Below, piece after piece: positions 59,788 through 64,000 of a stretch of 64,000 nt of DNA; positions within the stretch are counted from its first letter, which is position 1, and the number at the start of each line of letters is the position of its first letter. The notes below the pieces were generated by a model. That model was not told where the DNA came from, did no database searches, and was given only the letters and a program-made list of their open reading frames with translations. The stretch comes from Bacillus sp. NP157 (lineage in GTDB: Bacteria > Pseudomonadota > Gammaproteobacteria > Xanthomonadales > Rhodanobacteraceae), in assembly GCA_018889975.1 (NCBI GenBank), contig CP076546.1, positions 310,001 to 374,000 on the forward strand, given 5' to 3'. Both the position numbers and the translations under genes were made by a program.

Positions 59788-60501
59788 TCATGCCCAGCCT
59801 GCGAGGATGTATCCCCACAGGGCAAGGCGCTCGTGCATGGCCTTCCCGCTGACGTACCACGCCGTGCGCGTCCTCGAGAGCCAGTGCGACGACACGCGAT
59901 AGGGTGGTGGCGCTACCGCGGCTCCGTAGACGACAAATCCCTGTTTGGCGAATGCCCGCGTCGCGCGGGTGAGGTGCGCCGCTGACGTCACGACGATGAC
60001 CGAGCGCACGCCGAACTCGCGCAGGATCGGGCCGCTGTAAACGGCGTTTTCGTGCGTGCTGGTGCTGCGGGTCTCGAGCCGCAGCTGCGTACCCGTGGCA
60101 GCACGGCCGCCCATCGCTTGTGCCATCCTGGCCGCTTCGCCGTAGCCGCCCGAAAGAAGCATGACCCGTGGATGGCGTTCGCCGCTTAGTGCGACGCCAA
60201 GTTCGATCCGTGTGCTCGGGTCGGCGTCGGCATCATCGTTGCTATCGCCGACGCTCGCCGGTACGCGGTCCCCGCCGAGGACAATTACGGCATCGGGTTG
60301 CTGTCCCTTGGGCATGGCGTAGACCGTCGGGCCGACGATGAGGGCGTCCCTGAGCCAGCCGGCGAAAGAGGGCGTGCCGCAAAGGATCAACCACCCGAAA
60401 CCCGCGGCGATGGGGAGTAGTGCGATCCACTTTCGCGTAAACGCATACGCCGCGATGCCGACGAGGGCTAGAAGGACGGCCTGGATCAGCGGAAGTGCCA
60501 T
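59788..60501 (-). CDS. YdcF/DUF218 family membrane protein
   Basis: 237 residues. Two N-terminal transmembrane helices (LIQAVLLALVGIAAYAF; IALLPIAAGFGWLILC) precede a DUF218 domain with PDAVIVLGGDRVPA, VMLLSGGYGEAARM, STHENAVYS and VTSAAHLTRATRAF. DUF218 proteins such as SanA/ElyC/YdcF affect envelope integrity or undecaprenyl-linked sugars; the reaction is unknown. It follows the wecA-like gene after 20 bp. The ATG at 60501 is preferred to a long upstream extension. Confidence 0.85.
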   Translation of the reverse strand: MALPLIQAVLLALVGIAAYAFTRKWIALLPIAAGFGWLILCGTPSFAGWLRDALIVGPTVYAMPKGQQPDAVIVLGGDRVPASVGDSNDDADADPSTRIELGVALSGERHPRVMLLSGGYGEAARMAQAMGGRAATGTQLRLETRSTSTHENAVYSGPILREFGVRSVIVVTSAAHLTRATRAFAKQGFVVYGAAVAPPPYRVSSHWLSRTRTAWYVSGKAMHERLALWGYILAGWA

Positions 60502-60521
60502 GGCAAGCCATCGGCGCCGAC

Positions 60522-61637
60522 TCAGTCGGCGATGGCGGGCTCCGGCTCTTCCGTAAGCGGGATCTTCACAATCGCTTGCACGGGCGGAATCTCCACGACA
60601 GCGCTCTGGCTGCGCGGATGCGTCCGTCGATACTCTCGTACGACGATCAGTGTGTAGACGACGGTCACGGCGAGGAACGTCATCAGGTTCGTTTCGCCAG
60701 GCAGTCGGCGGGTGATCGAGCCGATGCACGAAAGGATCGTCGACAGGCCCACGAGGACGATGAGCGCCTGGCGCGGCGTGAGCCCACGTGCGAGCAGTAG
60801 GTGGTGGATGTGCCCGCGGTCTGGCTTGAACGGCGATGCACCGTGGCTGAGACGTCGCGTCATCACCGTGAGCGTGTCCAGGACCGGCAACGCGACGCAC
60901 CAGAGGACATCGGTAGGACTCACTGGAGAGTCGCTGGACTCGGCCATGCGGATCAAGGCCCACGCCAGCAGGTATCCGACGACCATGCTTCCTGCATCGC
61001 CGAGGAATACCTTGCGCCGGGTGAAGCCGAGGTTGACCAGCAGGTAGGGAAGGGCAGCCGAACCGAGCAGCGACAGCAGCACCACGATGCCAGGCAGATC
61101 GGCCTTGCCATGGAACGCGAGCAGGGTCACGACGCTGACGAGCGCCTGTGATCCGGCGAGGCCGTCGATGCCGTCCATCATGTTGAAGGCGTTGAGCAGT
61201 CCGATCACGGCAACGACGGTGAGGACGTAGCCGCCAGCGCCGAGTTCGACGGGCATGCCGAAGAGATGGCCGAGCGTGGTGATATGTACGCCGGTGGAGA
61301 ACATCACGCACACCACGCAGGCAACCTGTGCAACGAGTCGCACACGGACGCTGAGATCGTGACGATCGTCGAGGGCGCCGATGATGGCCATGACGGCGGC
61401 CGTCTCGATGACGACGGTGCGGAATGGCCCGAGCTGCCCGAAGTACAACGTGCCTGCGACAATGCCGCCATACATGGCGAGGCCGCCGATCAGCGGAACG
61501 GCACCCAGGTGACGCTTGCGGTCAGTGGGAATGTCCACGAGGCCGAGCGGGCCGGCGAGGGGGCGAAGGATTGCGATGAGAAGGCCGGTGATGGTCGCAG
61601 CACACAGGCAGGCCATCAGGAAGTGCGCGTTGATCAC
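60522..61637 (-). CDS. wecA: Undecaprenyl-phosphate HexNAc-1-phosphate transferase (WecA-like)
   Basis: 371 residues, polytopic. MraY/WecA-family motifs: IPTDRKRHLGAVPLIGG near the start, GALDDRHDL (DD), NAFNMMDGIDGLAGS, FLGDAGSMVVGYLLAW, and the HIHHLLLARGLTPRQ loop of the WecA group. It transfers GlcNAc-1-P (or GalNAc-1-P) to undecaprenyl phosphate, priming repeat-unit synthesis for the locus. GTG at 61637 has AGGGA 7 nt upstream. A weak promoter lies about 135 bp upstream (TTGTCC, 17 bp, GAAAAT on the minus strand, 61800-61772). Confidence 0.92.
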   Translation of the reverse strand: MINAHFLMACLCAATITGLLIAILRPLAGPLGLVDIPTDRKRHLGAVPLIGGLAMYGGIVAGTLYFGQLGPFRTVVIETAAVMAIIGALDDRHDLSVRVRLVAQVACVVCVMFSTGVHITTLGHLFGMPVELGAGGYVLTVVAVIGLLNAFNMMDGIDGLAGSQALVSVVTLLAFHGKADLPGIVVLLSLLGSAALPYLLVNLGFTRRKVFLGDAGSMVVGYLLAWALIRMAESSDSPVSPTDVLWCVALPVLDTLTVMTRRLSHGASPFKPDRGHIHHLLLARGLTPRQALIVLVGLSTILSCIGSITRRLPGETNLMTFLAVTVVYTLIVVREYRRTHPRSQSAVVEIPPVQAIVKIPLTEEPEPAIAD

Positions 61638-62056
61638 TCAGATATCCCTATCGACGAAGACGAGGACTCGCAAAGCCTGGGCGCAGCTAAGTCCTTAAGC
61701 GGCCCGCACTTGGCACGGAACAGCATTTGCAACGCGATGTGCAATGAATTTCCAGATTTCCCCTTCCTTTCATTTTCGCACGTATGAGAATTACGGACAA
61801 CGACCGCGTCGACATTCCGGCGGCTCGCTTACCGCGGTTGGCCGTACAAATGAGAGGCACGACACAACAAGTCAATTCTTTGGCGCGTGTCGTGATTAGG
61901 GTCAACTCGAATGCCTCACCGGCGCGAATCGTGCGCCTTCACCCCAAAGACTAAGTTCGCCTGCGCCACTCGTGTGTAGGGGAATGCCTCGGTGAACATG
62001 GGGCGTCGCCCGTTCTGGCCCATCAGCGCCCGCCCAAGGTATCCTTAGTGCCTGTC
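61638..62056. other. Intergenic region between wecA and the broken tRNA
   Basis: 419 bp, AT-richer than the flanks. It holds TTGCA-N8-TGCAA (61727-61744), an inverted repeat CACGACAC/GTGTCGTG with a 21-nt loop (61858-61894), and a hairpin GGCGC-N7-GCGCC (61921-61937). No gene is supported. A -10-like TATCCT (62039-62044) precedes the tRNA fragment. Confidence 0.5.
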
Positions 62057-62095
62057 GGCCCCGTAGCTCAGCTGGATAGAGCGTCCCCCTCCTAA
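62057..62095 (+). pseudogene. tRNA-Arg(CCU), 5' half only (integration edge)
   Basis: The sequence runs GGCCCCG, TAGCTCAGCTGGATAGAGC, then TCCCC-CTCCTAA: acceptor 5' strand, full D-arm, 5' anticodon stem and the complete 7-nt anticodon loop with anticodon CCT. The following bases (ACTTACGG) cannot pair with the stem, and no T-arm, acceptor 3' strand or CCA appears in the rest of the window. The break is exactly at the 3' end of the anticodon loop, a known crossover point for tyrosine integrases. Confidence 0.85.
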
Positions 62096-62265
62096 ACTTA
62101 CGGTCGGGCTTTTGGGCTCCAGGGTGGAAATGCGGAAATGGGCTTTGTTTATGGGGTTTGGTGTAGTTTCGAACAGGATTTCGACACGGGTTCTCACGGG
62201 TCTAGGTTGAGTTGTACGGGTACCCGGTGTCCCAGGGGTGTCCCAACTTTTTGACGGATTGGACG
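62096..62265. other. Putative attachment-site arm region
   Basis: 170 bp between the broken tRNA and the first island gene. It contains tandem GGTGTCCCA copies at 62226-62234 and 62237-62245 (11-bp period) that could be integrase or excisionase arm sites. No gene is seen. Confidence 0.45.
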
Positions 62266-62775
62266 ATGTCCCAGAAATCACTTGAGCACATCCGGGCCGC
62301 GTTCGGCCCCACGCAATACCTGTTTGGGGTGGATGAAGTTGCCGCGTTGCTGGGCAAGCAAACCGATGCGGAAAAGGACTACGTCCGTGTCCAGATGCGG
62401 CGGGGTGACATCCCGGGTGCGCGCAAGGACGGAAAGTCCTGGAAAATCCCCATCGACGACCTTGCCGACCTGCTCGACGGCCACCCGGTGCAACGGGCTC
62501 CGCCCATTATTCCGCTGTCCACCAGCAGGCCGATGAGCCGCCGCCGGTCGCTTCTGGGGGAGCGCTTGGGCGACATCCGTGCGCATGGCTTCTGGTCACG
62601 TGTCGCCGAGGCCCTGGGGTGGGCTCAGGAAGCCCAGCTCCTCGACCAGGGCGCGATGGACATCATCAATGAGCTCCGGCGGGAGTGGGCACTCAAAAAC
62701 ACCGCTCGGTTTGATGCCAGTTTTGCCCCCGCGAGCGCACCGGCGAGGGGAAGGGGGCCAGGGAACACGCTCTGA
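62266..62775 (+). CDS. Excisionase-like helix-turn-helix protein
   Basis: 169 residues. Residues about 17-70 (YLFGVDEVAALLGKQ; YVRVQMRRGDIPGARKDGKS; WKIPIDDLADLLDG) follow the HTH_17/excisionase winged-helix pattern: a helix pair, then a basic wing with W-x-I-P. The rest is an Arg-rich linker and a helical segment (GDIRAHGFWSRVAEALGW). Next to a broken tRNA it probably regulates excision or transcription of an integrated element. The ATG at 62266 starts just before the domain; a longer reading from 62212 would cross the candidate arm sites. Confidence 0.65.
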   Translation: MSQKSLEHIRAAFGPTQYLFGVDEVAALLGKQTDAEKDYVRVQMRRGDIPGARKDGKSWKIPIDDLADLLDGHPVQRAPPIIPLSTSRPMSRRRSLLGERLGDIRAHGFWSRVAEALGWAQEAQLLDQGAMDIINELRREWALKNTARFDASFAPASAPARGRGPGNTL

Positions 62776-62826
62776 CACCATGCACTGGGTTGACGACGAA
62801 AGGACCACCAGAGGGGAGCGAAGGAC

Positions 62827-63273
62827 ATGGCCGGCATCTTTGAGGCGTTTCTGAGAGGGCTGCTGGGCGGGGCATCGGGCAGCGCACGCAAGCGGGCAAA
62901 GAGCCCCGTTGCTAGGGCGGTCGCGAAGGCCGTTTACCCGCAAAAGCCAAAGGCAAAGCCAAGGGTAAAAGCGCCGGCACGCGGCCACGGCGATTACGCC
63001 CAGGAAGTGGTCGGGGAATCAAATTACCAGCCGGCACTGCGGGCCATCCAGGCCACCAAAGACAAACCCTTCCACCGCGCGCGCCTCGTGCCCGAGGACA
63101 GCAATCCCTACGATAACCTGGCCGTCCGCGTGGACGTCGCAGGACACACCGTGGGTTACCTTCCCAAGGCCGATGCCCGGCGATGGCGGAAGGGCGCAGG
63201 CCCGAAGACCTGCGATGCATTCATTGCTGACGCCGGACCCAGGACAAACCTCGGCGTCTGGCTCAGGCTCTGA
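62827..63273 (+). CDS. Stand-alone HIRAN-domain protein
   Basis: 148 residues. A basic, low-complexity N-terminal part (about 1-52, Lys/Arg/Ala/Pro-rich) precedes a HIRAN domain (PF08797): EVVGESNYQPALRAI, then RLVPEDSNPYDNLAVRV and HTVGYLPKADARRW. HIRAN domains bind DNA ends, for example in Rad5/HLTF helicases, and occur alone in phages and mobile elements. No helicase or nuclease domain is attached here. A GGGAG site 12 nt before the ATG is a weak ribosome site. Confidence 0.75.
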   Translation: MAGIFEAFLRGLLGGASGSARKRAKSPVARAVAKAVYPQKPKAKPRVKAPARGHGDYAQEVVGESNYQPALRAIQATKDKPFHRARLVPEDSNPYDNLAVRVDVAGHTVGYLPKADARRWRKGAGPKTCDAFIADAGPRTNLGVWLRL

Positions 63274-63281
63274 GCACAAAA

Positions 63282-63304
63282 AAAGGGGCATTGCCCCCTT
63301 TCTG
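63282..63304 (+). terminator. Possible terminator after the HIRAN gene
   Basis: GGGGC-ATT-GCCCC flanked by AAA and CTTTCT, starting 9 bp after the stop. The stem is short and the T-run weak. Confidence 0.55.
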
Positions 63305-63470
63305 CTTCCTTGGATGCGTGTCAGGCCTCAGCCTGCAATCGGTGCCACGACCTGCTCGACACGCGCCGCCAAGCTGGATAAGCGGTGCGCAGGAACTTGC
63401 CACTCGCCGTACAATTCCCCGGGAACACAGGGAACAATTGAATGGACACTTTGACTGACGGGCGTGCTCG

Positions 63471-64000
63471 ATGAGCGCGGCCGACCCTTCGGGCTATTAC
63501 AGGGTTCTGGAAGTTCCGCCGACCGCAACGGGTGCCGAGCTCAAGGCCGCCTTCCGCCGCAAGGCTCAGGAATATCACCCTGACCGCTGTAAGCGTCCGG
63601 ATGCACAGATGCTCTTCCAGCTGGTCAACACTGCATACCAAGTGCTGGGCGACCCGGTTGCGCGTGCGCACTACGACACGGCCACTGTTGAGCCCGCCCC
63701 GGATGCACGGGCCAACTCCAAGTCCAACTCCCCGGACCCAATCCGGTGCAGTGTCTGCGAGAAGGTCACTGCCCAGCCCCGATATGCCATCTTTTTCCGG
63801 GTCTACAGCGCTATCGTTGTGACCAATCGCCAGCCTGTCCAGGGCATTTTTTGTCGCCCGTGCGCGGACGCAAAATGCATGGAGGCGACATGGTTCACGT
63901 GGGCGCTCGCATGGTGGGGTGTCCCCTGGGGGCCCGTGTATGGGTTGTCTGCCATCTTCACCAACATGTTTGGCGGGAAACAGCCCGCCGACATCAACGC
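63471..64000 (+). CDS. J-domain protein with zinc motif and membrane segment (partial)
   Basis: The frame is open from ATG 63471 to the window end (176 codons visible). Residues 6-70 form a J domain (GYYRVLEVPPTATGAELKAA; HPD in QEYHPDRCK). After a linker, CSVC (about 94-97) and CRPC (about 128-131) form a candidate zinc site. A hydrophobic, Trp-rich stretch (WFTWALAWWGVPWGPVYGLS) looks like a membrane segment. It may recruit an Hsp70 to a membrane or phage component. The end of the protein lies outside the window. Confidence 0.75.
   Translation, partial: MSAADPSGYYRVLEVPPTATGAELKAAFRRKAQEYHPDRCKRPDAQMLFQLVNTAYQVLGDPVARAHYDTATVEPAPDARANSKSNSPDPIRCSVCEKVTAQPRYAIFFRVYSAIVVTNRQPVQGIFCRPCADAKCMEATWFTWALAWWGVPWGPVYGLSAIFTNMFGGKQPADIN

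Follow-up and report, generated by a model that had tools for sequence, protein, structure and literature searches.

An integrative element that splits a host tRNA-Arg(CCU) gene in the anticodon loop and probably carries its replacement

The stretch of DNA analyzed here, a window of 64,000 nucleotides, covers positions 310001–374000 of the single 4.88-Mb contig of its genome (G000:C1) and contains, close to its downstream end, the left boundary of an integrated element that interrupts a transfer RNA (tRNA) gene for arginine with the anticodon CCU. The 5' half of this tRNA-Arg(CCU) gene, GGCCCCGTAGCTCAGCTGGATAGAGCGTCCCCCTCCTAA, occupies window positions 62057–62095 on the forward (+) strand; its 39 nt are identical to positions 1–39 of the intact tRNA of relatives, and its last base is the end of the anticodon loop. 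A preliminary description of the window had placed the start of the fragment and its break in the anticodon loop correctly and had given its end as 62096; the true end is 62095, and base 62096 (A) belongs to the insert, where G39 of the host gene would be expected. After the junction, the window reads ACTTA instead of the GGGGA expected for the host tRNA, and ARAGORN called no tRNA at 62057–62095 within the window. The region upstream of the host tRNA (62024–62056, +) includes GTATCCTT 17 nt before the gene, a motif that is also found at −15 to −17 in most intact copies of the same genus and that probably represents a −10 region now driving just a half gene.

A genome search located the 3' half of the host gene, CTCCTAAGGGGAAGGTCGCCCGTTCGAATCGGGCCGGGGTCACCA, at G000:C1:421727–421775, 49.6 kb downstream of the 5' half, and the two halves joined give 77 nt that ARAGORN reads as tRNA-Arg(CCT). 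The insert measures 49.6 kb from core to core (genome positions 372089–421737), with its left end at window positions 62096–64000 (+) and the remainder beyond the window. All that the two junctions share is a 7-bp common core from the anticodon loop, CTCCTAA, which lies at window positions 62089–62095 (+) and, as the comparison of junctions revealed, again at genome positions 421731–421737 at the right end of the element, so that neither junction can rebuild the host tRNA. Read outward, this right end consists of an integrase gene, a complete tRNA, an arm-like repeat pair, and the 7-bp core with the host 3' half. The integrase gene (genome 420106–421503, − strand) encodes a tyrosine integrase of 466 aa, P0001 (Pfam PF00589 Phage_integrase, expectation value (E) 1.1e-13), whose catalytic R-K-HxxR-H-Y residues are invariant across the integrase subfamily, and the complete tRNA-Arg(CCT) lies between this gene and the arm repeats at genome 421559–421635.

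The joined host tRNA is identical at 77/77 positions to the intact gene in 17 of the 22 other genomes of the same genus, so the tRNA match is not due to chance. In most of these 17 genomes, the gene directly after the intact tRNA is the same flavin adenine dinucleotide (FAD)-oxidoreductase gene that follows the 3' half here, and on this comparison the intact tRNAs of the relatives are empty sites. Much of what the preliminary description had proposed for the region beyond the window is thereby borne out: the far end contains the 3' half, an integrase, and the loop sequence as a direct repeat, the latter two in agreement with its view of the anticodon-loop breakpoint as the integrase crossover; the break is the left boundary of an element that extends past 64000, with its right end at genome 421737; and island-free relatives carry the intact tRNA at this place. 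Neither of the findings that it had named as contradicting its reading arose, given that the 3' half is present in the genome and that the relatives without the insert do not have a truncated gene.

Of the 45 tRNAs in the genome, the complete tRNA-Arg(CCT) of the element is the sole one of its kind. Compared with the host gene, 12 of its 77 positions are different, including some in the acceptor, anticodon, and T stems, and every stem is still paired despite these differences. We consider it very likely that a tyrosine-integrase element split the single tRNA-Arg(CCU) gene of its host in the anticodon loop and that the copy that it carries makes this loss good. An inactivated host tRNA with an element-borne or far-end replacement was one of two possibilities raised beforehand, and the split halves together with the complete tRNA at the far end speak for it. 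The other was a mere displaced junction of a gene rebuilt elsewhere, as in classical tRNA islands, whose attachment site carries one tRNA half that rebuilds the gene, so that the fragment in the window would be the displaced half. As a rule, tRNA islands rebuild their target (PMC4383910), and restoration is also seen with integrases more distantly related to that of the element (G156 in a tRNA-Thr gene with a displaced 5' half and, as it appears, G247 at the 5' side). For the genome studied here, however, such an island is refuted by the host 3' half at 421727–421775, which is separate from the complete tRNA by 140 bp core to core, as well as by the junction identity of only 7 bp and the 12 mismatches between the complete tRNA and the host gene, and we regard it as very improbable. 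At the same tRNA in another genome of the genus, an intact tRNA-Arg(CCU) and a 3' half lie 47 kb apart (G001:C1:1716011–1716059 and 1763383–1763459), and this pair is apparently a classical restoring island.

The tRNA-Arg(CCU) genes of some bacteria contain group I introns, and the break in the gene studied here falls in the anticodon loop, both of which would fit a split or intron-containing tRNA whose halves are joined as RNA (by a group I intron or trans-splicing) so that the gene is still functional. This explanation has next to no probability in our view because no Rfam family matched window positions 61600–64000 even at E up to 10, because the 49.6 kb between the halves hold integrase, excisionase-like, and mobilization genes, and because the gene is uninterrupted in the relatives.

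Integrase searches covered three overlapping sets of genomes: 233 of the family, a sample of 398 for the order, and a sample of 297 for a second family. These searches brought up 6 further elements in 2 families of the order (genomes G106, G107, G439, G627, G578, and G669) with the same right end composed of integrase, complete tRNA-Arg(CCU), arm repeats, core, and host 3' half. The displaced 5' half was located for each of the six, with the two ends on different contigs in G106 and G578, and every joined host site reads as tRNA-Arg(CCT). The cores are 7 bp long in G000, 11 bp in G669, 12 bp in G578, and 13 bp in G106, G107, G439, and G627, and all of them contain CTCCTAA, while the sizes of the elements range from around 10 kb (G439 and G627) to around 51 kb (G669). 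In all 7 replacement tRNAs, the acceptor, anticodon, and T stems are fully paired, with 7–19 differences from the replaced host gene. A wider search of genome contigs with P0001 yielded one locus only, in the same genome as G106; comparison with plasmid and phage collections gave no close relative (identity only around 27–29% over around 60% of the integrase), and viral contigs contributed 7 distant integrases with 30–36% identity to P0001.

This recurrence bears on the possibility that the tRNA of the element is incidental cargo which supplies AGG decoding or resistance to anticodon nucleases, the loss of the host gene being harmless as tRNA-Arg(UCU) reads AGG. In a heuristic count, AGG reaches 7.2 per 1000 codons in the open reading frames (ORFs) of the element, around 4 times the value for the host ORFs of window positions 1–62000 (around 1.9 per 1000), and a tRNA-Arg(UCU) is indeed present in the genome. 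Incidental cargo would not track the target, though, so it counts against this explanation that all 7 carried tRNAs share the anticodon of the broken gene and the slot between the integrase gene and the arm sites; moreover, tRNA-Arg(CCT) was the only tRNA found in the element. We therefore consider cargo of this kind unlikely.

Several observations nevertheless weigh against a replacement of the host gene by the copy of the element. By wobble, the tRNA-Arg(UCU) could also read AGG, in which case the cell might not absolutely require tRNA-Arg(CCU), and host genes in the window seldom use this codon. In addition, the GTATCCTT box before the replacement tRNA overlaps the ribosome-binding region of the integrase gene in some relatives, and the right half of the attachment site in G000 has little visible inverted symmetry. 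As a candidate for a diagnostic promoter of replacement tRNAs, the GTATCCTT box was set aside as weak evidence, since in several relatives its position is that of the integrase ribosome-binding region.

The anatomy of the replacement arrangement, which is known from some phages, is well supported by what can be read in the genomes themselves: the host gene in two halves, its empty sites in relatives, the genes for an integrase and an excisionase-like protein, a sole replacement tRNA, and the presence of the module in 7 elements. The function that we infer from it begins with an integrative, mobilizable-plasmid-like element that would enter the chromosome by tyrosine-integrase recombination at the anticodon loop of tRNA-Arg(CCU), with the crossover taking place within the 7-bp core CTCCTAA. 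The attachment site of the element holds no tRNA sequence beyond the loop, so that integration would leave the 5' half on the left of the element and the 3' half on its right without rebuilding the gene. The integrant would survive by letting the element's own tRNA-Arg(CCU), presumably transcribed and charged, take over, and this tRNA would be needed for good growth. Upon excision, the two cores would recombine and restore the host gene exactly; the circular form would then carry an attachment site reading GCCCCG-CTCCTAA-ACTTAC, and the 77-nt tRNA of the relatives is the predicted bacterial site. These steps of crossover, takeover, and excision are modeled on lambda-type integrases and on mycobacteriophage experiments with the same anatomy (PMC10865867). 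As a consequence, a clean exit would be possible, and deletions that remove the tRNA of the element while it is integrated should be selected against.

Putative arm-type integrase sites flank both cores. A repeat pair with a period of 11 bp, TGTCCC-N5-TGTCCC, lies at window positions 62228–62244 (+), i.e., at +138/+149 from the core, and occurs just twice in the 60 kb that were read across the element, both times on the + strand: 138 bp inward from the left core and 81 bp inward from the right one (−81/−70). In relatives, the left copy of this pair is located between +124 and +139 and the right copy at −71 or about −80; the 11-bp period is kept in nearly all of them, and G669 has a diverged pair (TTACCACA/TTGCCACA). 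These pairs match the expected look of arm-type sites. The core of the replacement tRNA and the attachment core are 130, 140, or 159 bp apart at the 7 right ends (L038, L039, L040, L107, L172, L173, and L174), and together with the positions of the arm sites this suggests spacing in steps of one helical turn.

Inside the left end, an excisionase-like helix-turn-helix gene (62266–62775, +; PHROG 1840 excisionase, E 1.7e-5), whose product also has a Pfam HTH_17 match just below the cut-off, is followed by 2 cargo genes: a neighboring one that encodes a HIRAN domain (62827–63273, +; Pfam HIRAN E 1.1e-5, 25.6 bits at a cut-off of 24.7) and the start of one for a DnaJ-domain protein, which runs past the window (63471–64000, +; genome 373471–374907; Pfam DnaJ E 3.6e-20). 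An excisionase-like gene is also present at the left end of the elements in G107, G439, G669, and G019 (tblastn E 1e-12 to 1e-20). The interior encodes a TrwC/MobF relaxase-helicase (E 3e-64), a TrwB_AAD_bind coupling protein (E 7e-63), ArdC (E 5e-33), a second TraG/TraD-like ATPase, a YadA-like adhesin, and an EAL protein, among others. Comparison of 10 proteins with PHROGs, which covered small unannotated ORFs only in part, revealed no phage structural, packaging, or lysis gene; apart from a 21-bit terminase match that falls on the conjugation coupling ATPase, the matches were to integrase, excisionase, helicase-type proteins, and unknowns only. Likewise, no gene for mating-pair formation was found among around 30 ORFs searched with Pfam, a set that does not cover every small ORF. 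The element hence looks like a mobilizable plasmid, not a phage, and judged by its gene content it is most likely mobilizable rather than self-transmissible. On the host side, window positions 60000–62056 adjoin a gene cluster of polysaccharide type that includes a WecA/MraY-like gene; this region had no nucleotide match beside the tRNA in 3-kb loci of relatives, and the upstream flank of the host is thus variable.

The elements of other genomes carry different genes, with type III restriction-modification in G439 (L187 5199–9474), part of a type III methyltransferase in G107 (L186 14473–15444), and E1-E2 and phospholipase genes resembling a cyclic oligonucleotide-based antiphage signaling system (CBASS) in G669 (L188 5106–8943). 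The cargo of these 3 elements is rich in defence functions. By this comparison, the integration module evidently travels with exchanged cargo.

In the integrase tree, the 7 replacement-type elements form 2 groups that also include G156 and integrases adjacent to a HAD-family gene, the latter without any tRNA nearby. G156 (C8:260300–282300; L117 and L120) encodes a related integrase (around 46%) in tRNA-Thr(TGT) with a displaced 5' half and, as read from its sequence, is a 5'-restoring element that provides its own upstream region for the tRNA, while the more distant integrase relatives in G247 and G058 appear to be 3'-restoring. Replacement and restoring types are intermixed on this tree, so the mode of integration has changed more than once. 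A displaced 5' half of tRNA-Arg(CCU) was also seen in G023 (C108:13914–13956), along with an intact copy after TTGGCACAG-type repeats (C140:6146–6222; L051 and L060); this pair is probably another 5'-restoring element with different arm sites. In G019 (C15:500989–520760; L042, L059, and L191), one TGA and a break of the frame disrupt the related integrase, and no right arm sites are left. The host gene is directly adjoined by a tRNA whose anticodon stem is of the replacement type, and the host 5' half still lies 19.7 kb away. This looks like an element that no longer has a right end of its own and has become fixed, so that the tRNA now in the host derives from the element, though a 5'-restoring origin of the arrangement is also conceivable.

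All 7 broken host genes have the anticodon stem and loop NCCCC-CTCCTAA-GGGGN, and all 7 replacement tRNAs keep the loop on a stem that is different from that of the host but paired (CGCCC/GGGTG, GTCGC/GCGGC in two, ACGCC/GGCGT in two, CACCC/GGGTG, and CGTCC/GGACG). The stem flanks the core, where the core-type contacts of the integrase are expected, so this pattern fits a replacement tRNA that is not a target of the integrase. That the altered stem hides the replacement from the element's own integrase is, in our estimation, about as probable as its opposite. Five independent replacement lineages are few, and the stems of native tRNA-Arg(CCU) genes vary within the order (e.g., in G014, G015, G020, and G156). 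The tRNA at G015:C1:73426–73502 (L183) is identical at 76/77 positions to the replacement tRNA of G439/G627 and that at G020:C2:490846–490920 (L184) at 76/77 positions to the one of G107/G106, and in neither genome does another tRNA closely match the host tRNA-Arg(CCU). A view of these 2 tRNAs as domesticated replacements lost weight because both lie in conserved chromosomal gene order with no element remnant detected. Capture of host tRNAs of the G015/G020 type by the elements is at least as likely as domestication, and if such stems were already present in the source hosts, capture could account for the stem pattern.

Integration that depends on a phage-borne tRNA has been described as tRNA-dependent lysogeny for the actinobacteriophages Fionnbharth, LeBron, Gaia, and Cain by Guerrero-Bustamante and Hatfull in 2024, who asked how common it is elsewhere (PMC10865867). 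As in the elements studied here, those phages use a tyrosine integrase and a bacterial attachment site (attB) in the anticodon region of a tRNA that is not rebuilt, have short cores (8–17 bp compared to 7–13 bp here) and arm-type sites on both sides (putative here), and have some integrase relatives that rebuild the tRNA. They differ in being temperate phages of Actinobacteria that mostly target tRNA-Lys(UUU), whereas we observed tRNA-Arg(CCU) of Lysobacterales, a mobilization-gene-bearing element, and defence-carrying islands, with the tRNA fixed between the integrase gene and the attachment site of the element (attP). The Rhizobium phage vTRX32-1 group and Sinorhizobium prophages related to Lo5R7ANS likewise share a short (12 bp) repeat within a host tRNA that the phage tRNA is thought to replace, and the authors noted that the phage tRNA is without the motif, which would prevent self-integration (PMC8631192, PMC11476347, and PMC12429752). 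Those cases are phages at tRNA-Leu in the Rhizobium group with the core absent from the phage tRNA, in contrast to the kept loop and changed stem reported here. Classical islands and integrative and conjugative elements (Islander, PMC4383910) also have a tyrosine integrase, a tRNA target with a sub-site in the anticodon loop, and a tRNA fragment at one end, but they rebuild the tRNA from a half gene in attP. The open-access papers searched, a limited set whose silence is no proof of priority, contained no report of tRNA-replacing integration in a conjugation-type element or in Lysobacterales.

The logic of replacing a tRNA is now seen in 7 Lysobacterales elements, at least one of them of conjugation type, that share one integration module and exchange their cargo. 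It explains annotations of fragmentary tRNAs, makes the permanence of "essential" tRNA genes questionable, and leads us to expect that island finders relying on a regenerated tRNA will miss such elements. The pairs of host and replacement tRNAs constitute a natural experiment on how an integrase tells its target from its own copy. Whether a non-phage family of elements swaps the single tRNA-Arg(CCU) of its hosts for a replacement that keeps the loop, evades the integrase by a changed stem, and still decodes AGG appears to us an evenly balanced matter; if so, one tRNA would evolve under two constraints, having both to work on the ribosome and to be immune to a recombinase.
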